From positions 62,001 through 126,000 of the IMG/VR virus record IMGVR_UViG_3300046791_000499: a stretch of DNA of 64,000 nucleotides. One strand, given 5' to 3'. The position numbers were made by a program, and so were the translations under genes. This DNA is from a virus. The notes below the pieces were generated by a model that worked only from the letters and a program-made list of their open reading frames with translations, did not search any database and had not been told where the DNA came from. Positions within the stretch are counted from its first letter, which is position 1, and the number at the start of each line of letters is the position of its first letter. This document shows, piece after piece, positions 6,103 through 62,244 of this stretch.

Positions 6103-6435
6103 TCACGGAGGAGGCACCCACGGCTTGGCGCTGCCGTCGTTGAACGTCTCGGGAGGCACGCGACGCGGAAGCACTGACCGCTCGGCTCCGCACTTGTGGC
6201 AGTCGGGTGTCGGCGCGGCTTCGGCCCAGTCTGGGATTGCGGCAACGTGCATGGCTTGGTACCCGCACGCCGTGCATTGCCCCGGGTAGGATAGCCATTC
6301 GGTCCCCGGCCACGGTCGGCGCTCCGCCATGTTGATGATGTCGGCGCCGCCGTGCCGGTTGGGATCGGTCCATTCGACCAGCACCGCAACACACTCGGCC
6401 AGCGCCTCGGCGTCTTCGTCGTCTTCGTCGATCAC
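6103..6435 (-). CDS. zinc-ribbon protein, 110 aa
   Basis: It begins with an acidic stretch (MIDEDDEDAEALAE). It then has two CxxC pairs, CTAC near residue 54 and CHKC near residue 79, which form a zinc ribbon. The C-terminus is Pro-rich. Function unknown. It lies directly downstream of the chimeric gene at 6448-6642, with 12 nt between them. Confidence 0.6.
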   Translation of the reverse strand: MIDEDDEDAEALAECVAVLVEWTDPNRHGGADIINMAERRPWPGTEWLSYPGQCTACGYQAMHVAAIPDWAEAAPTPDCHKCGAERSVLPRRVPPETFNDGSAKPWVPPP

Positions 6436-6447
6436 GGATCCCCAAGA

Positions 6448-6642
6448 CTAGTCGCCGGTGGAAGCATCGACGGCAGCAACCCCGAGTTCGACGTCACCAA
6501 CCGCGCCGCTCGCCGCCTCGGCCGTGAAGTCGCCTTTGCGAGCCCGCTTGCGTGTCTTGGCCACGCTACGCTCACAGAACTGTTCCCAGTGGGCACAATT
6601 CTCACCCTCACACCACAAAGTAATCTCGCGCGTATAGCTCAC
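6448..6642 (-). CDS. chimeric small protein: Cys motif plus copied tail-gene segment, 64 aa
   Basis: Residues 1-37 (YTREITLWCEGENCAHWEQF, then SVAKTRKRARKG) resemble small phage proteins with a C-x4-C...C motif. Residues 38-64 (FTAEAASGAVGDVELGVAAV and onward) are encoded by an 84-bp copy of the tail gene at 15173-16216, in the same reading frame. The copy ends at a TAG where the tail gene has a Tyr codon. The GTG at 6642 is favoured by AAGGA about 9 nt upstream; an ATG at 6708 is possible. The role of the added tail is unknown. Confidence 0.6.
   Translation of the reverse strand: MSYTREITLWCEGENCAHWEQFCERSVAKTRKRARKGDFTAEAASGAVGDVELGVAAVDASTGD
6449..6532. repeat. 84-bp duplication, copy A (of 16056-16139)
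   Basis: 82 of 84 bases match 16056-16139 in the same orientation. The two differences are synonymous in both genes. The copy covers the last 27 sense codons of the 6448-6642 gene plus two bases of its stop. Confidence 0.9.
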
Positions 6643-6715
6643 AGGTTCGTGTCCTTCAACATGAGTAGTTCGTGGGCTTGGACGCCGAGCACCGATCCAC
6701 GCATACATCGCGGGT

Positions 6716-7492
6716 TCATCGTCGGTTCCACGTACAGCCAGCCAGCGGGACCGGGAGCACAAGATCGGTGCGGAGGGTGGCGAGCTGAAAGCACGTGCGT
6801 GCTGTGTCCTCATAGGCGCGCAGCAAGTTCATGACCTTCGTCGAGGTCACCAGATTTTTCCGCTCGAGCAGGTACTCGAGCGTGCCGTACTCGGCGAGCA
6901 GCTTGGCCGCGGTCTTGGATCCGACCCCCGGGATCCCCGTGTAGTTGTCGGACGTGTCTCCGATCAGGGCGAGCAGGTCCGGGATCCGCTCAGGCGGCAC
7001 GCCGAACTTCTCGACCGATTCATCCGGTCCCCATGTGCGCTTGCGGATCTCGTCGATCATCCGAACCTGGACCGGCTCGTCTCGCACGAGCTGCACCAGA
7101 TCCTTGTCGCCGGAGACGATCGTGACGCGCATGCCCTCGGCTACGGCTGCCGCAACGTAGGTAGCGATCATGTCGTCGGCCTCGTGGTCAGAGGCCGGGA
7201 TGCTGAGCGCCATTTTCCAAAAGCTGCACTGCCTCCGGCAGCCGAGCAGGACTTCGTTGAGACCCTCGGGTCGCGGAGGTCGGTTGGCCTTGTACGTCGG
7301 CCAGATCGAGCGGCGCCAGTTCGAGGAGTTGTCGAAGGGGTCGAACACGGCGACCGCATGTGTGGGCTCGTACCGGATCCGGTAGCGCCCGAGCGCGGAG
7401 CTGAATGCCTCCTCTGGCGGACGGTCAGTCGCGACGTGGAAGTAGCGGCGAGCCGCGTTGTCGCCGTCGACGACGAGCAGGTGTCCGGTCAT
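6716..7492 (-). CDS. 5'-3' exonuclease / flap endonuclease (FEN), 258 aa
   Basis: A metal-dependent 5' nuclease of the Pol I N-domain/T5-FEN family, expected to remove RNA primers and flaps during phage replication. Visible motifs: D9 in LLVVDGDN; FDP near residue 51; EADDMIAT at 104-111; SGDKDL at 127-132; GDTSDN at 178-183; and the helix-hairpin-helix GIPGVGSKTA at 186-195. These are the metal ligands and DNA-binding loop in the usual order, and the length fits a stand-alone phage FEN. The ATG at 7492 overlaps the stop of the upstream gene (ATGA). Confidence 0.92.
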   Translation of the reverse strand: MTGHLLVVDGDNAARRYFHVATDRPPEEAFSSALGRYRIRYEPTHAVAVFDPFDNSSNWRRSIWPTYKANRPPRPEGLNEVLLGCRRQCSFWKMALSIPASDHEADDMIATYVAAAVAEGMRVTIVSGDKDLVQLVRDEPVQVRMIDEIRKRTWGPDESVEKFGVPPERIPDLLALIGDTSDNYTGIPGVGSKTAAKLLAEYGTLEYLLERKNLVTSTKVMNLLRAYEDTARTCFQLATLRTDLVLPVPLAGCTWNRR

Positions 7493-7824
7493 GGCAGATC
7501 CTTGGCTTCGCGGATCTGCGTGGGTGAAACGATACCGGCCGTGATCATCGCGGCGTAGAAGTCGAACCCCTGGCTCACGAGCCCAACCGTGAACGCAACG
7601 TCGGCCGGCGCGACGACCCATTCGCCGAGCGACTCGGTCTCGAACCGGAGCAGCGTCCACAGGTTGCCCTTGACCACCTTGACCTCGTGCACCTTGAACA
7701 ACCCGGTGAAGTGCCGGATCCGCTGGACCGCGCACGGGCCCGTATCGTGGATCGCCCACGTCCAGCACGCGGGCAGCGGCACGCGTTCGAGTTCGTCGAG
7801 GGTCCATTGTCTGGTGCTGGTCAC
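7489..7824 (-). CDS. hypothetical protein coupled to the exonuclease, 111 aa
   Basis: A beta-rich small protein (FKVHEVKVVKGNLWTLLRFE, then GEWVVAPADVAFTVGL) of no recognised family. The frame is open further upstream to an ATG at 7938, but that start is the complement of the tRNA anticodon and the sequence between is antisense to the tRNA. The GTG at 7824 is therefore preferred. The stop overlaps the FEN start by ATGA, so the two are probably co-translated. Confidence 0.55.
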   Translation of the reverse strand: MTSTRQWTLDELERVPLPACWTWAIHDTGPCAVQRIRHFTGLFKVHEVKVVKGNLWTLLRFETESLGEWVVAPADVAFTVGLVSQGFDFYAAMITAGIVSPTQIREAKDLP

Positions 7825-7901: not shown

Positions 7902-7976
7902 CGTGGGGTAGAGCAGCTAGGTAGCTCGCTGGGCTCATAATCCAGAGGTCGCTCGGTTCAAATCCGGTCCCCGCAA
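7902..7976 (+). tRNA. initiator-type tRNA-Met (CAU)
   Basis: A cloverleaf can be drawn. The acceptor is 7902-7908 with 7969-7975. The D stem is GAGC/GCTC (7911-7914, 7923-7926). The anticodon arm is CTGGG-CTCATAA-TCCAG with the CAU anticodon at 7936-7938. The T loop is TTCAAAT with stem CTCGG/CCGGT. Position 1 is C and its partner at 72 is A, the mismatch diagnostic of bacterial initiator tRNA. The anticodon stem keeps G29 and G30 paired to C, but 31-39 is G-U. One T-stem pair is a C-U mismatch, and the 3' end reads A-TCA, so CCA would have to be added. It could be a decayed or divergent tRNA. Confidence 0.7.
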
Positions 7977-9291: not shown

Positions 9292-10392
9292 ATGGCCGAG
9301 CCTCCGAGCAGCGTGTGGCGTTTTTCCGGCGGCTGGCTGCTGTGGCGCGTCGCCGACGAGATCGACAGACGACAAGCGACTATCGTCCCGGGCTCGCGGC
9401 CCTGCCGTGCGTGCGGAGGCCGTGGGACATTTGCGGAGTGGGGGCAACAGGAGGTTGGGTTCCTGTTGCCCGATGCCACGGGATTGCCCAGGAGCCTCGC
9501 CGACCGCGAGACGATCATCGGCCGAGAGATCCGGTGGGACCGGGTACTCGTGTGTGATTGCGTGTTTCCGTTTTCGTCGCCAGACATCCGCCCGGAATGC
9601 CCGACGCGTCCAGACACGGTCTCGCTCGCGTGGCTCGTGGGGTTCCTCGCCGAGCTGCCCAAGCCAGCATTCGATTGGCCGGCTCAGTGGCTCGTCGATC
9701 TCGACTGGCGCGAAGCCCAAGGCGATGACTCATGGCAGGCTGTTTGGTGGGCGGAGTTCATGGCCTGGACGCGCGGTGCGGCGATCGACGTCGACCGTCT
9801 CCAGCGTGCGCTCGATGATGCTTACCTCGCGGAGCGTTTGAAACTCGCTCACGCGAACCGGCAGCCGTCGATCGCCGCAGCCGTTCGAGCGGTCGTGGGC
9901 GTGACGAGTGTCTGCGTGCTCGAGAACCGGGTCAGCGGGGACCCGGCCGAACGCTCACTCGAAGTACTCGTTGAAGGCGGCGAGGACGAAGCCGTTGCCG
10001 CGGCGATCTACTCGTCGATGCATCGGGGCATTCCGCTCATCGGCACGGTCTCGGTGATCCTCGAAGGTTCCCCAGCGCTCGGGCTCTGGGATGACTCATG
10101 GGCGGAGGTCAGGTTTTCGCGGCCGTCGTTCTCGGTCGTGTCGCATGGTGGCCTGGACGTCACGTGGACCGCTCACAACGTGGCCGTGATCAAACCGATC
10201 GCGGCCCAGGGCTGGAACTACTGGGGCTACTCGCTGGCGATCGATGAAGAGGTTGTCACCGTCATGTCCACGCCTGGCATGGATGTGTGCGCGCTGCTGC
10301 GCGATGGCATCTACCAGAACCCGGTGCTGGCCAACCGGGTGACCGCGGTCGCGGACAGCAGGACCCTCACCCTGACCAGGGTCGACGGCTAG
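9292..10392 (+). CDS. chimeric accessory protein with baseplate J-like segment, 366 aa
   Basis: Residues 1-190 resemble the other Trp-rich zinc-knuckle accessory proteins of this genome: CRAC at 38-41 in CRACGGRG, CDC at 88-90, and many Trp residues. Residues 194-280 (IAAAVRAVVGVTSVCVLEN, EVLVEGGEDEAVAAAIYSS, EVRFSRPS) align with the baseplate J protein at 16219-17427 (AAVRAVAGVTSASLLEN, EVLVVGGDDDAVAAAIQAS, TIKFSRPE). Residues 281-366 match nothing I know. The ATG at 9292 follows the upstream stop closely. The J part is diverged, so this is an old fusion. Whether it joins the virion is unknown. Confidence 0.65.
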   Translation: MAEPPSSVWRFSGGWLLWRVADEIDRRQATIVPGSRPCRACGGRGTFAEWGQQEVGFLLPDATGLPRSLADRETIIGREIRWDRVLVCDCVFPFSSPDIRPECPTRPDTVSLAWLVGFLAELPKPAFDWPAQWLVDLDWREAQGDDSWQAVWWAEFMAWTRGAAIDVDRLQRALDDAYLAERLKLAHANRQPSIAAAVRAVVGVTSVCVLENRVSGDPAERSLEVLVEGGEDEAVAAAIYSSMHRGIPLIGTVSVILEGSPALGLWDDSWAEVRFSRPSFSVVSHGGLDVTWTAHNVAVIKPIAAQGWNYWGYSLAIDEEVVTVMSTPGMDVCALLRDGIYQNPVLANRVTAVADSRTLTLTRVDG

Positions 10393-10529
10393 TCCCGGAG
10401 CAGGTCGAGCAACCCGTTGAGCACCGCGCTCGCGATGTAGCTCAGCACCACCGCGATCGCACAGCAGGCCGCAGCGTCTCGCACCCGGTGACGGATGACC
10501 ATCTGCGGGGACATGCGCTCGGCCGGCAT
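10389..10529 (-). CDS. small membrane protein, 46 aa
   Basis: One hydrophobic helix (ACCAIAVVLSYIASAVLNGL) with basic residues before it, suggesting a single-pass inner-membrane protein. It has candidate ATG starts at 10529, 10514 and 10502. It converges with the plus-strand chimeric gene and their stops overlap. It could be a small lysis or exclusion protein; nothing decides this. Confidence 0.4.
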   Translation of the reverse strand: MPAERMSPQMVIRHRVRDAAACCAIAVVLSYIASAVLNGLLDLLRD

Positions 10530-10656
10530 CGATCGAGCATGGGCCAGCCGTACTGCTGAGTCCGACGAAAAGATGTCGGCACTCCAGATAGGTGACCCGG
10601 GGCGGACGAATCCACCCCGGGTCTTCGGGTCGATCGGACGGTCACCCGCCCGCACC

Positions 10657-11160
10657 TTAGAACGGGAGCCGATTGCTCGGCTGCTCCAATGTCGCAGGGA
10701 CACTGCCCGGATCAAGCGTAGCTTGATCCCCGGCGAAGCCGGCCTTGTCTGTGTTTGGTGGTTTCCGCTCGCGACGCAACGTCGCAAGCTGCTCGGTGAA
10801 GATCGAAAGGGCAGGCCCGAGCGCGTCGCCGCGGTTCTCGAGCCAGTCGCAAAACACGGGGAACTCATCGGTCCGCAAGCGTCGCTGCAGCTCGTCGAGC
10901 AGGTCGACCACGTGCACTCGCGCCAGGACCTCGCCGATTGGGAGCCGGCACATGGAGATGGTCTCGGCGCTGGAGATGGTGACCTTCAAGGTGGGCGAGC
11001 CCTCGTGATCGACACGGGCCTTGGCGCTCGCGCGGCGGTTGGGCTTACGGCCGCTGGGTCCCGTCAGGCCGGGCACGGTCATGCAGGCGTCCGCTCGCGG
11101 CCGGCCGAAGCCTTGTTGCCGCTGAGTTGCCAGCCGAGCGCGCTTGGCTTTCCGGGTCAT
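10657..11160 (-). CDS. hypothetical protein, 167 aa
   Basis: A basic N-terminus (TRKAKRARLATQRQQGFGRP) is followed by a helical centre (GEVLARVHVVDLLDELQRRL, then FCDWLENRGDALGPALSIF) and a disordered C-terminus. No family recognised. Composition and codon use look genuine. Confidence 0.5.
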   Translation of the reverse strand: MTRKAKRARLATQRQQGFGRPRADACMTVPGLTGPSGRKPNRRASAKARVDHEGSPTLKVTISSAETISMCRLPIGEVLARVHVVDLLDELQRRLRTDEFPVFCDWLENRGDALGPALSIFTEQLATLRRERKPPNTDKAGFAGDQATLDPGSVPATLEQPSNRLPF

Positions 11161-11278
11161 CGTGGTGTCGACCGCGGGAGAGCGGCGGCTATTCCGGCCA
11201 ACTGGAGATGAGAGAAAGCTCGCACGCTGATCGGCTACGAAAAGTGAACCGTCCAGCCCCTGCCGTCACTGGTGCTGC

Positions 11279-11452
11279 ATGGACCCCGTCGACCTCGCCC
11301 ATGACCATTGCTTTCAATCTATCCGATGCGCACTCGGCTTCGCATCATGGCACGAGCGGCTTGGCCTGTGGCTGGACGGCACGCTGACGCTGGCGGATCT
11401 GCGCAAGGCCCGGAGGTCTCGGCGCCAAACAGTGGTCAGGGGCGCCCGTTGA
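11279..11452 (+). CDS. small protein, 57 aa
   Basis: The frame reads DLAHDHCFQSIRCALGFASW, then ERLGLWLDGTLTLADLRKA and a basic tail, which is more protein-like than the overlapping frames. The ATG at 11279 has only a weak ribosome site. The end overlaps the convergent gene at 11436 by 17 nt. Function unknown. Confidence 0.35.
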   Translation: MDPVDLAHDHCFQSIRCALGFASWHERLGLWLDGTLTLADLRKARRSRRQTVVRGAR

Positions 11453-13138: not shown

Positions 13139-15163
13139 TTAGTAGACACCTTTGACGGTCAGAACGATGTCGTACCAATCGACGGTTGCCGAGAAGTCGA
13201 GCCGCACTCGGAACGTGCGCTGGGCTGCGGTCGGCAACGTGTACTTCTTCCGAAACGTGAACGGCATCATTCGGCCCGTCGTCCCAGCGCCGTCAATGTC
13301 CAGCGAGTTGAGCGGCTGAGAAGTAGCCACGGTGACCGACCCCGTGACGTCCTTGAGCAGAATGGTCATCGTCGTGGTGTCGGTTCGTCCGTTCCACATT
13401 CCGGTGACCTCGACAAGCACAACGCCGGTTACCTCCGGTGTGATCACGGCGTCCGCGACATCGCCAGTTGTGCCGACGTTGGAGCCGTCGGTTGTGGTGC
13501 CGTCGCCGTGCACCCAGCCCTTCGTAGAGCTGTGGATGCTCTCGTACGCTGCGCCGTTGTGCGTCCGCCACTTCACGCGGCTCGAGTTCAAGAACAGCGA
13601 GCCGGCCTGCGTCGTCGTTGGATCCGAATCCACAGGCACAACGACAAGCGGGGAACGCTTTGGTGCCGTTGCGTCCGTCTCTAGCTTCGCCGCATTGCCG
13701 TCCACGCTCAAGGCGTAGAGTGCGTTTGCATCTCCGAGTCCCAACGCGGCAATCCCAACGCCGCTCGAGGTAGCAGCAGCGGATGAAGTGCCCACGACAC
13801 CCACTGCACCAGTATTGACCGCGACGCCCTTGACTCCGTAGCTGGTCGCGTTGTTGAAGCCCGTCCCGAGAACGCCGTTGACGCCGGCGCCGGTGCCTAC
13901 ACCCACGAGACCGCCATTGCCTGTGAACGGCTCGCTGCAGGACATCGTGCCGATTACCGCGATGATGTCGCCAGCCGCGTTGCCGAGCGTCGACGATCCA
14001 TTCAGCGCCGTTGCCCCGGTGACGGTGAGGGCGGCAATCGTTGCCGCAGCCAAGCAGTCGAAAGTATCAGCCGTGCTCGTCCCGATCGTGCACGTGAAAG
14101 CGCCAGACCCAATGCAGAGCGAGACATCGTGGCCGGCAGTCAAATATCCATCGGTGGAAATGCCGACGGTGGAAATGACGTTGCCTCCGACGATGACGTT
14201 GTATCCGAATGATCCGCTGTATGTGACGTTGAGATAGGCGTCCGTGGAGATGTTCCCGGCCGCATGCACCACGGTGCTCGAGTAGACACCGTTGTAGCCA
14301 AGCACGCTGTTGGCGACCATCGCCTGATCGATGTTGACGTTCTCACCGAAGTGGACGTCGCCTCCGATGGTCTCGAGCACGATCCCGGGTCCACCGAAAT
14401 CGTTGTGGAAGGTGGCCGTGGTGTCGGTCGCCGAGTTGTTGGCCACGGACAACGCCGGCCCGCCGTTGGCCCCGATGAGAACCGAGGCAAGTTCCCCCAC
14501 GAGCGGAGCACCCGTGACGATGAGTGCAGCATCGGCCGGCACCGTGATGGTCACCAAGTCGGTGAAATTCGTTTGGCCTGAGACCGTCAGTTCCTCGGCG
14601 CCGATCGACTTGTGCGTTGGGATCTCGGGCACGAGCACCGTCGCAGCGGTGACGTTCGCGCCGTCGGTCTCGATTTTCCAGATGGCCACATAGCCCGCGG
14701 CAGGGACCGGCGCACCCGCTCCGTTGTTGACTTCCTGGTACGCGACCAGCCCCGCCTCGTTGAGATTGACGTAGGTGTCCTTGCTCGCCGTGAAGGCGTG
14801 CGGGCTGCCAATCGCGACCGTGAACTGCACGACCACGCCGCCGTCATCGTTGGCGTCGACCATCACCCACGACGCGGTGATCGAACTGCTCAATCCCGCG
14901 CCGGTGGTCCACGCGCCCGAGGTCGGGAAGACGAACGTACCGAACAGGCCAGCCGACGACGGGACCATCCGCGAGATGCCCATCGCCCGGATCCACCGCG
15001 CGAGATGCTGCCACTCGTAGTTGACCGTGCCCGACGGCAGAATCACGGAGCCGAGACCGGCAGCCTCCTCGGCAGGCACGGCGAAGGGTCCGCCAGATTC
15101 TCCCCACGTGGGCTCGTCGTAGGTGTCGTCCGGGTTGACTGGGATATCGGTGACGGCGGTCAT
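13139..15163 (-). CDS. tail fibre / tip protein, 674 aa
   Basis: A long beta-rich, Gly/Thr/Ser/Val-rich protein with repeated short strands (GNISTDAYLNVTYSG, GGNVISTVGISTDGYL, GVNGVLGTGFNNATSYG), typical of trimeric fibres. The N-terminal 100 residues probably attach to the baseplate. The C-terminal domain from about residue 560 (VADAVITPEVTGVVLVEVTG and onward) is a likely receptor-binding or trimerisation head. It is the last gene of the structural operon. Host range would be set here. Confidence 0.75.
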   Translation of the reverse strand: MTAVTDIPVNPDDTYDEPTWGESGGPFAVPAEEAAGLGSVILPSGTVNYEWQHLARWIRAMGISRMVPSSAGLFGTFVFPTSGAWTTGAGLSSSITASWVMVDANDDGGVVVQFTVAIGSPHAFTASKDTYVNLNEAGLVAYQEVNNGAGAPVPAAGYVAIWKIETDGANVTAATVLVPEIPTHKSIGAEELTVSGQTNFTDLVTITVPADAALIVTGAPLVGELASVLIGANGGPALSVANNSATDTTATFHNDFGGPGIVLETIGGDVHFGENVNIDQAMVANSVLGYNGVYSSTVVHAAGNISTDAYLNVTYSGSFGYNVIVGGNVISTVGISTDGYLTAGHDVSLCIGSGAFTCTIGTSTADTFDCLAAATIAALTVTGATALNGSSTLGNAAGDIIAVIGTMSCSEPFTGNGGLVGVGTGAGVNGVLGTGFNNATSYGVKGVAVNTGAVGVVGTSSAAATSSGVGIAALGLGDANALYALSVDGNAAKLETDATAPKRSPLVVVPVDSDPTTTQAGSLFLNSSRVKWRTHNGAAYESIHSSTKGWVHGDGTTTDGSNVGTTGDVADAVITPEVTGVVLVEVTGMWNGRTDTTTMTILLKDVTGSVTVATSQPLNSLDIDGAGTTGRMMPFTFRKKYTLPTAAQRTFRVRLDFSATVDWYDIVLTVKGVY

Positions 15164-15172
15164 GGTGATCGG

Positions 15173-16216
15173 CTATGGGTCGGTGGCGAGCGTGAACGCG
15201 AGGACATCGGGTCCGTCGAGTGCGCTTTCGTCGAGGGTGAAAACATCGGGTGCAGCTTCGGGCGAGAACACCAGCACCATGCGAACGCCGTGCGGGCGCC
15301 CGCGGTAGAGCACGTCGAAGTAGGTTAGCGCCTCGTTCTCGGTCAGCTCGAAGAAGTAGACGACGTAGGTCAGCGGGTCGGGGCGCTCGAGCAACCACGT
15401 CTGCGCTCCGTTCACCAACCCAGCGGCCAAGGCTTTGGTGACCGATGGCTGGCGGTTCGTGCCCACAGCCCCGTCGATCGGAACGAGCACGTTCTGATAC
15501 CTCTCGTCGCTCCAACCGTCCGGGCGGAGGAAACCGAGGTCGCGCCCGAGAGCGTCGAGATGCACTCCGATCGCAGTCAGGACCGAGCCCACCCGCCAGC
15601 GAACCTCCCACGATGATGCGAGCAGCTCGCCCACCGCTGCCGTGAGCACGGCCTGCCACACCTGGATCTCTGGGTCCTTGACCAGCGGCGGGCGCATGGT
15701 CTGGAACCACCGCGTATTCGGATCCACGGGGTTCTGTGCGTAGATCGGATCGCCGATGATCTCGATCGTCGTGGCCAGCGGAACGGTCGTAGTCGACCCC
15801 CACGGCGACCACAGGATCCGCATGTGGTACGCGGTGATGCCATCCTGTTCGTTCGTTTCCCAGTCCGTGGGCATCGACCAGCGGATCGAAACCACGCCCG
15901 TCTCGGTCAGCGCTGCGGTCGCGTCGACCAGGTTGGGCAGCTTCACCCATGCGCTGCCGTTCCAATACTGGTACGCCAACCCGCTGGTCCCGAGGAACGC
16001 GGTCGAGATGTCGATCTCGATCTCGACGAAGGGGTAGGTCCAGCCGACCACGAAATAGTCGCCGGTGGAAGCATCGACGGCAGCAACCCCGAGTTCGACG
16101 TCACCCACCGCACCGCTCGCCGCCTCGGCCGTGAAGTCGGTCCAGATGTCGCCGTCCTCCTGGAACAGCCGAGCGCTCACTGGGTAGTTGGTGAAGTTGT
16201 CGTAGGCGTCTGTCAT
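15173..16216 (-). CDS. DUF2612-like tail protein, 347 aa
   Basis: The C-terminal half (GSVLTAIGVHLDALGRDLGF, DGWSDERYQNVLV, GAVGTNRQPSVTKALA, YVVYFF) fits the P2 gpI/DUF2612 type of baseplate-to-fibre connector. The N-terminal 150 residues (AYQYWNGSAWVKLP, ITAYHMRILWSPWG) form a beta domain often seen at the front of such proteins. Residues about 27-53 are the source of the 84-bp duplication found at 6449-6532. It lies between baseplate J and the fibre, as expected. Confidence 0.75.
   Translation of the reverse strand: MTDAYDNFTNYPVSARLFQEDGDIWTDFTAEAASGAVGDVELGVAAVDASTGDYFVVGWTYPFVEIEIDISTAFLGTSGLAYQYWNGSAWVKLPNLVDATAALTETGVVSIRWSMPTDWETNEQDGITAYHMRILWSPWGSTTTVPLATTIEIIGDPIYAQNPVDPNTRWFQTMRPPLVKDPEIQVWQAVLTAAVGELLASSWEVRWRVGSVLTAIGVHLDALGRDLGFLRPDGWSDERYQNVLVPIDGAVGTNRQPSVTKALAAGLVNGAQTWLLERPDPLTYVVYFFELTENEALTYFDVLYRGRPHGVRMVLVFSPEAAPDVFTLDESALDGPDVLAFTLATDP
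16056..16139. repeat. 84-bp duplication, copy B (of 6449-6532)
   Basis: 82 of 84 bases match the copy at 6449-6532. Here it is internal to the DUF2612-like tail gene, so this is the likely parent copy. Confidence 0.9.
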
Positions 16217-16218
16217 TC

Positions 16219-17427
16219 CTACGCTCCGGTCACGGTGATATCGGTGAGTTCGTTGTCGATGGCGAACTGCTCACGAACCGCGGCCTCGAGTGTGCCCGTG
16301 TTCACCGGCGGGTCAACGATGTCGACCTCGACCACGATGTTGTCGATGCCGGGGATCCCCGCGTTGTTGTTCACGTAGGCGGCGATCTTGAAGCCGCTGG
16401 TGTTCTCGCCGGGAACGAGCGCCTCAACGTAGGTCACGACGGCTGCCCGGATCGCTGTCTCCCGAGCCGCAATGGCCTCGACGCTCATGTCGCCCGGATA
16501 GCCCTCGCCCTTGGTGATCGTGACCTCGATGTAGATCGCCACGAGTTCGGGGCGCGAGAACTTGATCGTGACCTGGCCGCCGACGTAGTCCGCGTCGATG
16601 ATCCCCACAATCGTGTTGCCGACCGTGTTGACGCCCTTCGCACGCGAGGCTTGGATCGCGGCGGCGACCGCATCGTCGTCGCCACCCACGACCAGGACTT
16701 CGACCCAATGCGTGAGGCCCCAGTAGGCGTCAGGGGTGTTGGTCGGGTTCTCGAGCAGCGAAGCCGAGGTCACCCCCGCGACCGCGCGCACGGCCGCGAT
16801 CATGTTGCTGAGCAGCGCGTCTCGCCACCGCTGCCGATACTCGGCGTCGGTCTCGTCGCTGCGGCCTGGGATCGCATCGGCGACGTTGGGCCCGACTGAA
16901 AGCCAGCCCGTGACCGGCGTCAGGATCGTCCAGTCGGACGCCGCGATCGCTGTCTTCGGTCCGGTCTCGAAGTACTCCCATGTCCCGTCGATCGTACCAC
17001 CGCCAGGGATCGTCACCGCGCCGACCAGCGCCCACGCGCCGGTCTCGTCAGCGAGCGCCACGGTCTGGCCAGCCGGCACGTTGACGTTGGGCCCCACCGC
17101 GGCGAACAGCGGCAGCACGACGGTGCTCCCCACGGCTGCCAGCTTCGGACCGATCCTCGGGGTCAGCAGCAGTTCGAGGCTTGAGCCCTCGGCGACGCCG
17201 TTGGTGCCGGGAGCCGCCGAAATGAACTTCGAGTTGTAGTTGCCCGCGCCATCATCCCACGCGTCCTTCATGACGTTAGCGAAGGTGCGCAGGAGGTCCG
17301 CTGCAGGGCCGTTCTCGACGTCGATGTTGGCGCTGGTCTCGGCCTTGTACTTGTTCTGCAGGTCGAGCAGGACCATGTCGTAGGTAGCCGGCAGCCAGCC
17401 GGTTGTCGTGTCATAGCCGAAGGACAT
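16219..17427 (-). CDS. baseplate J-like protein, 402 aa
   Basis: A Mu gp47/P2 J family baseplate wedge component. Visible features: an early NIDVENGPAADLLRTFANVM helix; a central SDETDAEYRQRWRDALLS near residue 195, the hallmark of the family; AAVRAVAGVTSASLLEN; and a beta-rich C-terminal part with VTYVEALVPGENTSGFKIA. Length is normal. It lies directly after the gp25-like gene. A diverged copy of its central part is found in the 9292-10392 gene. Confidence 0.88.
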   Translation of the reverse strand: MSFGYDTTTGWLPATYDMVLLDLQNKYKAETSANIDVENGPAADLLRTFANVMKDAWDDGAGNYNSKFISAAPGTNGVAEGSSLELLLTPRIGPKLAAVGSTVVLPLFAAVGPNVNVPAGQTVALADETGAWALVGAVTIPGGGTIDGTWEYFETGPKTAIAASDWTILTPVTGWLSVGPNVADAIPGRSDETDAEYRQRWRDALLSNMIAAVRAVAGVTSASLLENPTNTPDAYWGLTHWVEVLVVGGDDDAVAAAIQASRAKGVNTVGNTIVGIIDADYVGGQVTIKFSRPELVAIYIEVTITKGEGYPGDMSVEAIAARETAIRAAVVTYVEALVPGENTSGFKIAAYVNNNAGIPGIDNIVVEVDIVDPPVNTGTLEAAVREQFAIDNELTDITVTGA

Positions 17428-20815: not shown

Positions 20816-23616
20816 TGGACCCCCGGGATCGTCCGCCCACCGCCGTGCGCAGCGAGCAGCCTCTTGCCCTGCAGCTCGAACATCGCAGCCACGAGCGCGG
20901 GCAAGTCTTCCAACTTGGCGAGCATCGCGTCCCGAGCCTGATTCGCGGCATCCTGCATCGCATCGTTCTCCTCGACCGAACCCGCACCGTGGATGGTGAT
21001 CGTGAGGTTCTCGATCAGTTTGATGATCGGGGCGATTGTGATCAAGAGCGTTTGCGGTGGCGGCCTGCCTTCGAGCACCGAGCCTGGACCGCGAAGCCCG
21101 AGCATGTCGAGGATGTTCTTGGACGCCCCGTCGAAGATCCGGCCGGCCTGGCGAAAGCGCTCCTCGAGTTCCTTGGCCCGCGTGCGACCGGCCTCGCGTG
21201 CGAGCGCGACGGCTTGATCTGGATCGGTGCCGCCAGCGATCAGGCGTTCGAGTTCACGCTGAGCGAACTCCTCGGCCTGTTTCTCGGCCGCCTTTTTCAC
21301 GTCCTCCTCGAATTGGAAGAACGTGTCGCCCTTCCCCTTCTTTCCCTTCTTCCCCTTGGCTGCGCCCTTGACCTTGCCGATCTGGCCAACGGCTGCCTCG
21401 GCCGCGGCGTCGGCTGAACCAGTCGAGGCAAAGGTGGCGGTCGCGGTCTCGAACGCTTTCTGGCGCGTCGCTCGATTGCCCTCCAACACGGCCGCTCGCG
21501 CAGCTCGGCCAGCAGCGTCAGCATCCCCGCCGCGCTTTTTGGCCTCGGCTCGGGCTGTCTTCTCAGCTGAGTCCGCTCGGACCCGCTCCGCCTTCGCCAC
21601 AGCGTCGTATACCTGGCGGCCCTCGGCGGTGAACAACTTGGAGGCTCCCTGCTCGGCCTGCTCGGCTGTGCCCTTCGAGAGCTGATTGAGCCGGAAATTG
21701 GCCTCATTCACGTCAGTCTCGGCGAGAAGACCCGCGCCCAGCCCTCCAACCGCACCCTGCACACGAGCCTTTGTCGCCTTCTCGCGTTCCTGTTTCTGCT
21801 TGTCGTACGCCTGGTTGCGCTCAAACCTCGCTCGCTCCATCGCGTCGATGTTGGCGTTGGTCTGCCGGATCGATGCTTCGAGCGCCTTGATCTCCCGCTC
21901 GCTCTCCGAGATCGAATCGTTCAAACCCGTGATGTCGGCTACGGCACTTGCGGCCATGTTGCCGAGCGCGAGACCAACAGCACCAGCCGCCACGACCAGG
22001 CCAGCCGGCCCCATCATCGCCGTGGACATGCCGACGATCAGGAGCGTGGCGTTGATGAGAGCGTTCTCCATCCCGCCCGAGATCTCGATGAAGCTCTGGA
22101 TCGCATCGATGATCATGCCGACCGCCTCGGCCCCACCAACCACCGCATCGTAGAAGGCGTCTAGCGCCCCGCCGACATCCTCTGGCGAGACCGATCCGAT
22201 GAACTCGCGGACCGCTTCGATGGCCGTGACGAGTGCATCCGACAGCACTTGCGCAAAGCCGCCGCTCTCGGAGAACCGGCCATTCAGATCTGTGATCAGG
22301 CCCTTGAAGGCATCGAGCGCGCCGGCCTGTGAGACCTGGTCGAAGAACTGCGCGATGCCGTCCTTCAAGTTCGAGATCATGCCGGCAGCGGTCTCGGTTT
22401 GGTTCGCCATCGAGCCGGCGAACTCGGTCTCGCCAAGGCCCTTCAAATAGGCGCTGATCTCGTCAGAGCTTTTGCCGACCGTGGTGGTCAGGCCCTTGAA
22501 CGTGAAGGCGACCTTGTCTCCTTGGGTCGACGCCTTGATCCCGAATTCTTTGAGCCGCTCGAACTCGCCGGTACTGGCGTCGGCGACAGCCTCGACGAAC
22601 TCGATGATCGGCTTGCCCTGCGCCGCGGCGATGTTACCGAACGCGGTGAGCGATTCGGTCGACGCATCCAGGCCGATGTTTTTGAGCCGGATATAGGCGG
22701 TGGTGACCTCCTCAAGCTCGAATGGTGTGGTCTTGGCGAACTGCTGGATCAGACCGAACGCCGCGCTCGCACCCTCGGCCGAGCCCTCGACGGTCTTGAG
22801 TCGCGACCGGAGCGACTCGAAGTTGACTCCGGTCGAGAGCACGGCGGTGCCCAGGGCCGCGACCCCGATCGCACCAATGGAGGCGACGCGACCAACCGTT
22901 GCCGCGATCCCGCCGATGTCGCTCGCGGTGCTGCGCAGGATCTCTCGGCGACGATCCCGAGTCGATGCCTCATCGTTCAGATCGTCGAGCCGACGACGCT
23001 TGCGGTCCAGGAACAGCCGCGCGTCATCGTCGATCATCTTGTGATGCGACCGCTGACGATCCGAGGCGACCTGTTCGGAGTGCTTCCGGTTGTCCTCCGT
23101 TGCCCGCTCTCGGCTGACCCGTAGCTTGTCGAGCGCTCGCCCTTCCGAGGCCGCGATCCTCTGCGACGCTTTCTCCTCTGCCGCCGCCGCTCGCTCGGAT
23201 GCTCGGATGCGTGCGGCGATCTGCTTGTCCGACGCTGCGATAATCCGCTCGGACGCGCGCTCGTGGGCGGCGGCCTGCTTCGCGGCGAGAGAGTCCTCCT
23301 TGTCGGCGGCCTTCTCAGCGCTCGAGACCGCTTTCAAGAAGTCGGTCTCAGCCCGAACCGCAGCCTTCGCCCGGGTCGCCGCGGCTTTCTCGGCTGCCTT
23401 CGCAGCGCGCTCGGTCTCCTTGGCGAGCTGCCGTTCGGCGACCGCAGCCTTGGCCGCCGTGCGCTCTGACTCACCGAGTGAGCGGTCGAGATCGTCGGTT
23501 GCTCCGGCCGCTCGCTTCGATGTCCTGCTGAGCTTCTCCGCGTCGGCGTCGGCCTCCTTGAAGCCCTCGCCGTTGTACTTGGTGACGATGGAGATGATGA
23601 AGCGGCGCAGTTCCAT
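20812..23616 (-). CDS. tail tape-measure protein, 934 aa
   Basis: The longest purely tail gene. The N-terminal 220 residues are Ala/Lys/Glu/Arg coiled coil. Then comes a tape-measure core domain (SLRSRLKTVEGSAEGASAAF, FGLIQQFAKTTPFELEEVTT, AYIRLKNIGLDAS, TGEFERLKEFGIKAS), a hydrophobic segment (LIVGMSTAMMGPAGLVVAAG, about residues 480-520), and a charged C-terminal half. If length scales as in other phages, the tail would be roughly 140 nm. It follows the two chaperone genes as usual. Confidence 0.92.
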   Translation of the reverse strand: MELRRFIISIVTKYNGEGFKEADADAEKLSRTSKRAAGATDDLDRSLGESERTAAKAAVAERQLAKETERAAKAAEKAAATRAKAAVRAETDFLKAVSSAEKAADKEDSLAAKQAAAHERASERIIAASDKQIAARIRASERAAAAEEKASQRIAASEGRALDKLRVSRERATEDNRKHSEQVASDRQRSHHKMIDDDARLFLDRKRRRLDDLNDEASTRDRRREILRSTASDIGGIAATVGRVASIGAIGVAALGTAVLSTGVNFESLRSRLKTVEGSAEGASAAFGLIQQFAKTTPFELEEVTTAYIRLKNIGLDASTESLTAFGNIAAAQGKPIIEFVEAVADASTGEFERLKEFGIKASTQGDKVAFTFKGLTTTVGKSSDEISAYLKGLGETEFAGSMANQTETAAGMISNLKDGIAQFFDQVSQAGALDAFKGLITDLNGRFSESGGFAQVLSDALVTAIEAVREFIGSVSPEDVGGALDAFYDAVVGGAEAVGMIIDAIQSFIEISGGMENALINATLLIVGMSTAMMGPAGLVVAAGAVGLALGNMAASAVADITGLNDSISESEREIKALEASIRQTNANIDAMERARFERNQAYDKQKQEREKATKARVQGAVGGLGAGLLAETDVNEANFRLNQLSKGTAEQAEQGASKLFTAEGRQVYDAVAKAERVRADSAEKTARAEAKKRGGDADAAGRAARAAVLEGNRATRQKAFETATATFASTGSADAAAEAAVGQIGKVKGAAKGKKGKKGKGDTFFQFEEDVKKAAEKQAEEFAQRELERLIAGGTDPDQAVALAREAGRTRAKELEERFRQAGRIFDGASKNILDMLGLRGPGSVLEGRPPPQTLLITIAPIIKLIENLTITIHGAGSVEENDAMQDAANQARDAMLAKLEDLPALVAAMFELQGKRLLAAHGGGRTIPGVQ

Positions 23617-23628
23617 GGCTCGTCTCCA

Positions 23629-24351
23629 TCACTTCTTCGCCGTCGACGTTGCATCCATCGCCCGGCGCTCGACCTCGGCAGCGTGAGCCGCGATATCGAC
23701 CTGGTCCATGAGCGCGACCGGGGTCCAGTCGGTGAGCACTTCATGGCTGCTGGCGACGTAGCCCATCTTGGCGAGGTTGGCCGCCCACTGCACCGCGGTC
23801 GCTACCCCGGGAACCGGCACGCCGTAGTCTTTGGACTTGGGGCTGCGCAGCGAGTACGGCTTGCGGATCCACAGCGGTTGGAAGGTCTGCTCGATCTGAA
23901 ACGCCAAGACCTGCCAGCGGCCGAACGGGCCAAGCCCTGCCTGCGCCCACGTCGTCCAATCCTCGACCAGCACGTCGTCGACCTTGAGCCGGTCAAACAC
24001 CATGCGCTCGAACACCTGCGCAAGCCAACGGCCTTCCAGGTTCGCACTCACGGCGCAGGCGGTCAGCATTTCGACCGTGCGGCGGACACCATCGGCTGCG
24101 ATGTCGAGCCCTTGCTCGCGGTCGCGAACGGCGTCACCGATCGTGCCCGTGAACCCGTGGTCGGCCAGCACACCGCTCCACAGCGAGCCGACGACGTTGC
24201 CTCGGGCAGCGAGCAGCATGACGAGCGGCTCACCGAACCGATCGATCAACTCGGGCTCGAGTTCAAACGCGGTGATCGGGTCGAGAACCTGTAGCCGGCA
24301 GCGTCGGCCGGTCACAGTGAGACGGCCCCACGGCTGCCGGTAGTAGGTCAC
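23629..24351 (-). CDS. second tail-assembly chaperone-region protein, 240 aa
   Basis: Placed exactly where the second chaperone (GT/E' position) lies, before the tape measure. It contains WLAQVFERMVFDRLKVDDVL and VQWAANLAKMGYVASSHEVL; the family is not certain. The GTG at 24351 overlaps the stop of the first chaperone gene as GTGA. The frame stays open upstream into that gene, so a -1 frameshift fusion is possible as well as independent initiation. Confidence 0.6.
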   Translation of the reverse strand: MTYYRQPWGRLTVTGRRCRLQVLDPITAFELEPELIDRFGEPLVMLLAARGNVVGSLWSGVLADHGFTGTIGDAVRDREQGLDIAADGVRRTVEMLTACAVSANLEGRWLAQVFERMVFDRLKVDDVLVEDWTTWAQAGLGPFGRWQVLAFQIEQTFQPLWIRKPYSLRSPKSKDYGVPVPGVATAVQWAANLAKMGYVASSHEVLTDWTPVALMDQVDIAAHAAEVERRAMDATSTAKK

Positions 24352-60417: not shown

Positions 60418-60426
60418 TGCCCGGCT

Positions 60427-60454
60427 ATTATGTACCGCCGCGCAGGATATACAA
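60427..60454 (-). promoter_or_regulatory. promoter TTGTAT-N16-CATAAT
   Basis: On the minus strand TTGTAT (60454-60449) and CATAAT (60432-60427) are 16 bp apart in a short AT-rich patch between two genes. They point to the gene at 60136-60417 and the genes after it. Confidence 0.5.
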
Positions 60455-60501
60455 TAGTCCGACGCTGATTTATTTGCGCGCGAATACGCCCGGCTGGCGC
60501 G

Positions 60502-62244
60502 TCACTTCCGCAGCTCTCGCCCGAGCACGACCTGCTTGTCGGCCACGTCGTCCATGAGCCCGAGCCCGCGTAGCTTGGTCATGGCGTTCCTGAACGTGCC
60601 CGAAGTCGCACTCAGGCCGGCGCGGAATGCTGCCGTCTCCCGGGTGACCGGTTCGCTCGTGGCAGCCAGGACCTCGAACAGCCGGCGGTGCGCGCCTCCG
60701 AGCTTGCCTGCCCAGAACTCGAGCAGTTTCGCGCCGGTGGGCAGGGGCGTGAAGGTGCCCGCGTACTTGCGCTTGGCCTCCGCGCTGGCCTCGAGCATGC
60801 CGGTCGAGACGTCCACGAGCAGGGGCGGTGTGGCACCACGCAGCGTGGTCATCGCATTGCGGAAGGTGCCCGACTTTGGGGAGAGGCCGGCGAGCAGAGC
60901 GGCTCGGGTCCTGGTGACGGGCTTGCCGACTTGGAGCAGTACGGTCAGCACACGGCTTGGAGCGCCGCCAAGATCGCCGGGCGTGGTCTTGACCGGCTTC
61001 TCGTCGGGCGCGGCGTTGCGTGCCCGCGACGCGCCGACGCTCACCTGCACGATCGGAGTCACCGTCGGCGGAGGCGCGATGATGCGTGGCCTCGTCGTGG
61101 CCTCGGCCATCCAGTCCGGGATCCAAGGATCCGCGATCGCTGGGCTCACATGGCGAGGCTCCGCTGGGGTGACGGCCACGGCCTGACCACCGTTGGCTCG
61201 AGTCCAGCCCTGCGCACGCTGCAGTCCGTCGACTGCCTTGGAGATGGCCTCGCTCAGCCGGGCGTTCTCCCCTCGGACCGCAAGCAGTTCGGCCTCGAGT
61301 TCGGCGACGCGCTCTTGGGCTGCGGTGTCGACCACGATGCGCACCGCTGCTGCTTCCGACTCTGGCTCTGGCACGCCGAGGTCGCCGAGCTGCGCGACAA
61401 GTTCGGCCACTCGCTTGTTCGACGCTGGGACCTGCACGAGATGCCGCGCTCCCGGTCGCACGTGCTGCGTGAGCGTCGTGTGGTTCGTCCTGAACCTGGC
61501 CACGCCATCGAAATTGAAGGCCGAGCCGCTCGCCATGAACTCGCCGGGCAGCAGCCCTTGGAGCGTCGACCACTTGCTCTTGCCCTCGAACCCGAGGATC
61601 GCCGACGCGCGGGTGAGGTCGAGGTCCTGCGCGAACCTGCCGACCATGAGGTTGTTGGCCTCGGCGGCGGCGTCCTTCGCCAGCTTGGAGAACCGCTGGG
61701 TCGCGAGGATGCCTCCGAACCCGCGCTTGCGCCCCGAGTCCATGAGGTCGATGACGGCCTGCCTGCTCTCCGCCTTGCCCGACTCTGGCGCGAACCGGTG
61801 GGCTTCGTCGATCACGATCAGCCGAGGTCGCCACAGAGCACGCGGTGCGGCGAGCAGCCCTTCGATGAACAGCCGCAAGTAGAGCCGCTTGGCGTCCAGG
61901 GTGAGGTCGCTCAGATCCAAGATGGCCGAGCAGTTGAGTTCGAGCAGGCGCAGGGCGAGCCGCATGGCCGTGCTCGGGTCCGCGACGATGTCACCCTCGC
62001 GCTTGCCTCCGACGAGCACCGCGTTGACGTGCGTGCGCAGGCTGGCGTACTCGCCCTCGGGGTCGACGATGGCGACGGGGATCCGGTTGGCCAGGCCCTC
62101 GATCAGCAGGCGCAACGCTTGGCTCTTGCCGCCGCCCGAGTTCGCGCACAGCAGCAAGCGGGAGACGGTCAGCTCCAAGGGGTCGACGGTGACGATCGTC
62201 TCGGCGCCGGGCGGGGTCAGGACGATGGGCTCGCGGGTGATCAT
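60502..62244 (-). CDS. HerA-like ATPase with tandem winged-helix C-terminus, 580 aa
   Basis: A HerA/VirB4-type P-loop ATPase: Walker A NSGGGKS at 35-41, VAIVDPEGEY at 57-66, Walker B RLIVIDEAHRF at 141-151, and GGILATQRFSKLAKDAAAEA as sensor region. A coiled coil follows (about 290-330), then two similar winged-helix-like repeats near 440-510 and 525-575 (PKSGTFRNAMTTLRG; ATSGTFRNAMTKLRG). Likely a DNA- or nucleoprotein-translocating enzyme. Similar proteins occur in many phages and prophages without a proven role. The ATG at 62244 overlaps the upstream stop. Confidence 0.78.
   Translation of the reverse strand: MITREPIVLTPPGAETIVTVDPLELTVSRLLLCANSGGGKSQALRLLIEGLANRIPVAIVDPEGEYASLRTHVNAVLVGGKREGDIVADPSTAMRLALRLLELNCSAILDLSDLTLDAKRLYLRLFIEGLLAAPRALWRPRLIVIDEAHRFAPESGKAESRQAVIDLMDSGRKRGFGGILATQRFSKLAKDAAAEANNLMVGRFAQDLDLTRASAILGFEGKSKWSTLQGLLPGEFMASGSAFNFDGVARFRTNHTTLTQHVRPGARHLVQVPASNKRVAELVAQLGDLGVPEPESEAAAVRIVVDTAAQERVAELEAELLAVRGENARLSEAISKAVDGLQRAQGWTRANGGQAVAVTPAEPRHVSPAIADPWIPDWMAEATTRPRIIAPPPTVTPIVQVSVGASRARNAAPDEKPVKTTPGDLGGAPSRVLTVLLQVGKPVTRTRAALLAGLSPKSGTFRNAMTTLRGATPPLLVDVSTGMLEASAEAKRKYAGTFTPLPTGAKLLEFWAGKLGGAHRRLFEVLAATSEPVTRETAAFRAGLSATSGTFRNAMTKLRGLGLMDDVADKQVVLGRELRK

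Follow-up and report, generated by a model that had tools for sequence, protein, structure and literature searches.

In an uncultured phage, an 84-bp piece of a tail gene has been copied into the end of a small gene of a presumed zinc-knuckle family, and the small gene was most likely broken by this accidental capture of a fragment. The capture is real in the sequence as assembled. We consider it probable that a single non-homologous templated event replaced the second half of the small gene, which would have left the gene damaged but tolerated. The window, as the analysed stretch is called here, comprises 64,000 nucleotides (positions 62,001 to 126,000) of an IMG/VR virus record of 143,093 bp (IMGVR_UViG_3300046791_000499), and the whole record was screened for further copies. 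Its source is a metagenomic phage without close relatives. The features of the two loci are collected in Table 1.

Table 1. Features of the recipient and donor loci (positions in the window).
Feature	Positions	Strand	Basis or description
Downstream ORF, 110 aa, CxxC...CxxC	6103..6435	-	same frame as small gene
Chimeric small gene	6448..6642	-	GTG start, 64 aa: 36 native, 1 junction-spanning and 27 tail-derived residues, TAG
84-bp tail-gene copy (82/84)	6449..6532	-	repeat search and codon comparison
Native part, residues 1-36, first knuckle (C11, C16; also C23)	6535..6642	-	matched by IndiRoo gp32 and Sucha gp29, with no match beyond residue 36; family alignment
Upstream neighbour, 5'-3' exonuclease	6716..7807	-	PF02739 and PF01367
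Tail/baseplate protein, 347 aa, QYWNGSAW module at residues ~16-154	15173..16216	-	weak baseplate match; module alignment
Donor segment, tail protein residues 27-54	16056..16139	-	repeat search; segment present in module relatives

The two copies form a direct repeat pair with a spacing of 9607 nucleotides, and a repeat search of the window finds them identical at 82 of 84 bases (98%). They occupy the same codon phase within their respective minus-strand genes and differ at copy positions 51 (A at 6499, C at 16106) and 57 (G at 6505, A at 16112), where the minus-strand codons read GTT/GTG for valine and GGC/GGT for glycine; both differences are synonymous. Chance falls far short of such a repeat: exact direct repeats in the window extend to 50 bp at most, as compared with 15-19 bp in 20 order-2 Markov simulations. 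Repeat search and codon comparison bear out the preliminary description on the extent of the match, on the common strand and frame, on the silence of both differences, and on a small gene with a cysteine motif having captured, in frame, a piece of the tail gene. It had also read the restriction to silent change as the mark either of a very recent event or of selection on the peptide. Recency fits a pair of copies with two differences in 84 bases; for selection the two silent differences are weak evidence, both being silent by chance in about 8% of cases (P about 0.08). A shared strand and phase is likewise expected by chance in 1/6 of cases, and selection therefore need not be invoked. Only these two copies were found in the whole record, and on that count a mobile element was rejected as the identity of the repeat.

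The gene at the donor locus adjoins a baseplate wedge gene (phrog_6), with genes for tape measure, sheath and capsid further along. Its product contains a module around a conserved QYWNGSAW core, which no Pfam or PHROG model covers in this protein. Modules with the same core are present in tail-type proteins of other viral contigs (L003, L005, L009 and L014), and occur two to three times within single large tail proteins (L003:3864-6032 and 9857-11347). Residues 27-54 of the window's tail protein are aligned in many of these relatives, for example in both module copies of L003:3864-6032, with gaps of at most two residues. Because the copied segment is an aligned part of the module in many relatives, the tail copy is the original, and the direction of copying, from tail gene to small gene, is clear from this alignment. 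The whole module is found in the donor gene, whereas the small protein holds only 27 residues from the module's beginning, about one fifth of its length and without the conserved core.

The remainder of the small protein belongs elsewhere. In tblastn searches of phage genomes with the 64-aa product, residues 1-36 alone gave matches, to proteins of 58 aa in the Microbacterium phages IndiRoo and Sucha, the IndiRoo protein terminating in GWKVGLRGGRDYCRECVQEHGL. Cinna gp87 is a further relative, and a profile search adds five viral contigs with four distinct proteins, so that the family set consists of seven distinct proteins from eight records, all of them stand-alone and about 56-83 aa long. The window product carries at its start the motif [ST]RE[VI]T.WC....C..WE, and an R/K-rich stretch is also common to its first 36 residues and the IndiRoo-like family. 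Past the junction point, every one of the seven relatives has a second knuckle, W...D[YL]C..; three positions after its cysteine, the partner residue is C or H in six of them and D in the other (L038). This second knuckle, W...D[YL]C..[CH], is absent from the window protein and from the three frames downstream, where no remnant of it was found. Native similarity ends at residue 36, which is the junction, and the tail copy begins exactly where the second half should; in the relatives the missing part comprises about 21-45 codons, about the size of the copy. The small gene had been described as unrelated, but since residues 1-36 match the family, it is, judged by this alignment, a truncated relative of the IndiRoo gp32-like zinc-knuckle proteins and not an intact member, the family's D[YL]C.. 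half having been replaced by tail sequence. Zinc binding by the family is presumed from its cysteine pattern; as the second half is present in all relatives and missing here, the copy has replaced half of this presumed metal site. No Pfam model reaches its cut-off for the small protein, and while the IndiRoo and Sucha proteins match phrog_926 weakly, the window protein matches no PHROG. A match to viral contig L020 was rejected as the chance occurrence of KRARKGDF within a protein of 424 aa; the small protein also matches record positions 104177-104254 at 14.6 bits.

The copied 27 residues form the C-terminus of the small protein, as had been proposed. The TAG stop of the small gene is created at the junction, with TA common to the donor and G coming from the recipient side. 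The GTG start at 6642 is backed by the relatives; a longer ORF (6448-6813) overlaps the exonuclease gene. The cysteines that remain in the product are those of the native part, the tail-derived part containing neither Cys nor His. A GTG start of its own, with a GGGGATCC leader, opens the downstream ORF 12 nt beyond the stop of the small gene, and no relatives of this ORF were found. On the other side of the locus, immediately upstream of the exonuclease gene, the plus strand carries at 7902-7976 a tRNA-Met gene (CAT), the sole tRNA gene found in the window.

We infer that the copy arose by recombination, and that the DNA as assembled exists in phage particles. Template switching in phage replication, or the capture of a short phage DNA fragment in end-joining repair, would bring an 84-bp stretch of tail gene into the zinc-knuckle gene, with removal of the second half to about its stop. 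The resulting product would retain C11, C16 and C23 without the second knuckle, and would thus probably have lost its metal-binding fold and with it its function. A phage repair outcome of comparable kind, non-homologous and removing part of a gene, is the minihomology-mediated end joining documented in phage T4 (PMC8262927). However, the T4 events in the part of that paper drawn on here are deletions and tiny insertions, with no distant 84-bp copy among them. Templated insertions, known mainly from eukaryotic break repair, likewise place a short distant copy at a new site with flanking loss (PMC8421209, PMC11724301); the present case differs in its phage context. Word searches of the phage literature, incomplete in their coverage, found no description of such a short ectopic gene copy. 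Searches of viral records found no close relative with an uninterrupted insertion site from which the ancestral sequence and any microhomology at the junctions could be read; no IMG/VR relative sharing the repeat or the native junction was found either, in a search from which the records nearest to the window's own were perhaps left out.

A second short copy occurs in the same record. Outside the window (L026, L027 and L030), positions 1-127 of the record reappear without a mismatch at 22862-22988, and its last 119 bases (142975-143093) are the same sequence. The ends of the record therefore overlap, and an end-repeat call for the record may be misleading given this 119-bp overlap; an open reading frame of about 347 codons spans the closure. 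The fragment at 22862 stands directly after the ATG of a gene whose protein we take to be dpdA-like. With 126 bp taken as an insert, the flanks read MKFFLPDSRDSVDTTFDF..., and the protein start joined in this way is 40% identical, across 195 aa, to the closest relative found, an ORF of 443 aa from an uncultured phage (MT835580). Only about 195 of the 443 aa are present, and searches with Pfam and PHROG models gave no match. A tnpB gene (IS605 OrfB; L027:1936-3891, record 21936-23891) is interrupted by some 0.8 kb in which one gene ends and the dpdA-like gene runs through its first 195 codons; the PF01385 part at the front of tnpB and the PF07282 part at its back lie on either side of this stretch. 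A length of 127 bp is a common assembler word size, and assembly may thus have produced the second copy. Given the second copy, both an artefact and a habit of capture have to be kept under consideration for the record as a whole. The latter would mean that the phage lineage repeatedly captures short pieces of distant genes via a specific repair or copying activity, its traces being the 84-bp copy, the 126/127-bp copy at the dpdA-like start and the gene fragment in tnpB, and we regard this as quite improbable.

An artefact of the library or of amplification would consist in a chimeric molecule, as formed for instance in multiple displacement amplification (MDA), or in a minor variant in the metagenome consensus. 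It is unlikely to account for the 84-bp copy, although the source is an IMG/VR metagenomic record without close relatives, and the second odd short copy is of exactly the word-size length given above. Gene-fragment translocations have been reported in MDA-amplified metagenomes (PMC3642703), and the spacing of 9.6 kb may be set beside the distances of up to about 10 kb between chimera partners for which that paper cites earlier studies. Two junctions would, however, need to be wrong in the consensus simultaneously. The copies also carry two mismatches, and graphs with words of at least 55 would not collapse an exact match of 50 bp, the longest that the two share; misassembly by graph collapse is unlikely. 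If the 84 bp were instead a pure insertion that had split a longer gene, 6103-6642 minus the copy would encode one protein of 151 aa. The small gene and the downstream ORF do share a frame, the joined flanks contain no stop, and the record's second case, with its 126 bp after the ATG, resembles such an insertion. A shared frame is, on the other hand, expected in 1/3 of cases, and the downstream ORF has a start and leader of its own. The relatives of the first half are moreover all stand-alone, with their own second knuckle, which is absent from the joined reading, and a pure insertion is accordingly held to be improbable.

As one of its two readings, the preliminary description had offered selection on the tail-derived end, perhaps as a tag by which the small protein docks to the tail. 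An open frame and a stop exactly at the junction would equally be given by a selected fusion, with the frame kept, both differences silent and the stop placed at the very end of the copy. The silent pair is, as noted, not far from chance expectation. The copied peptide comes from within the tail module and is not a known self-standing unit, and where it now sits the small protein has lost its second zinc knuckle. Damage to the gene by a non-homologous templated event fits these findings better, and the tag is very improbable. A small gene whose 3' end is a short, near-identical repeat also recalls a diversity-generating retroelement or another programmed copying system. No reverse transcriptase (PF00078) was found in the record, and from neither copy do the two differences show an A-to-N pattern, A standing in each copy in turn; the retroelement was rejected on both grounds, and programmed copying has a negligible probability.

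If the broken gene is real, it offers a snapshot of how phage genes are broken, or of how chimeric orphan genes are born, through the capture of short pieces, in a single case in which the donor, the direction and the lost part would all be identifiable. It would also serve as a warning that one half of a small 'novel' phage protein may belong to a family and the other half be scrap.

As a baseline, 19 other viral stretches (284 kb) yielded one other long-distance copy, of 69 bp (L014:7803-7871 and 16503-16571). One of these near-identical copies lies where there is no listed ORF of at least 40 aa, and the other within a 60-aa ORF just before a 531-aa ORF. With these ORF surroundings, the pair was left uncounted as a capture of a known-gene fragment; its cores are palindrome-like (GGATCGTTCGGGGAACGATCC), and it is perhaps a small mobile repeat. 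Near its end, the record with the 84-bp copy also contains the promoter-like sequence CCGCGCGGGGTATATAATGCAG in a 76-bp inverted pair (88%; L030:12135-12210 and 14183-14258), part of which is matched at 86% by window positions 60419-60455.
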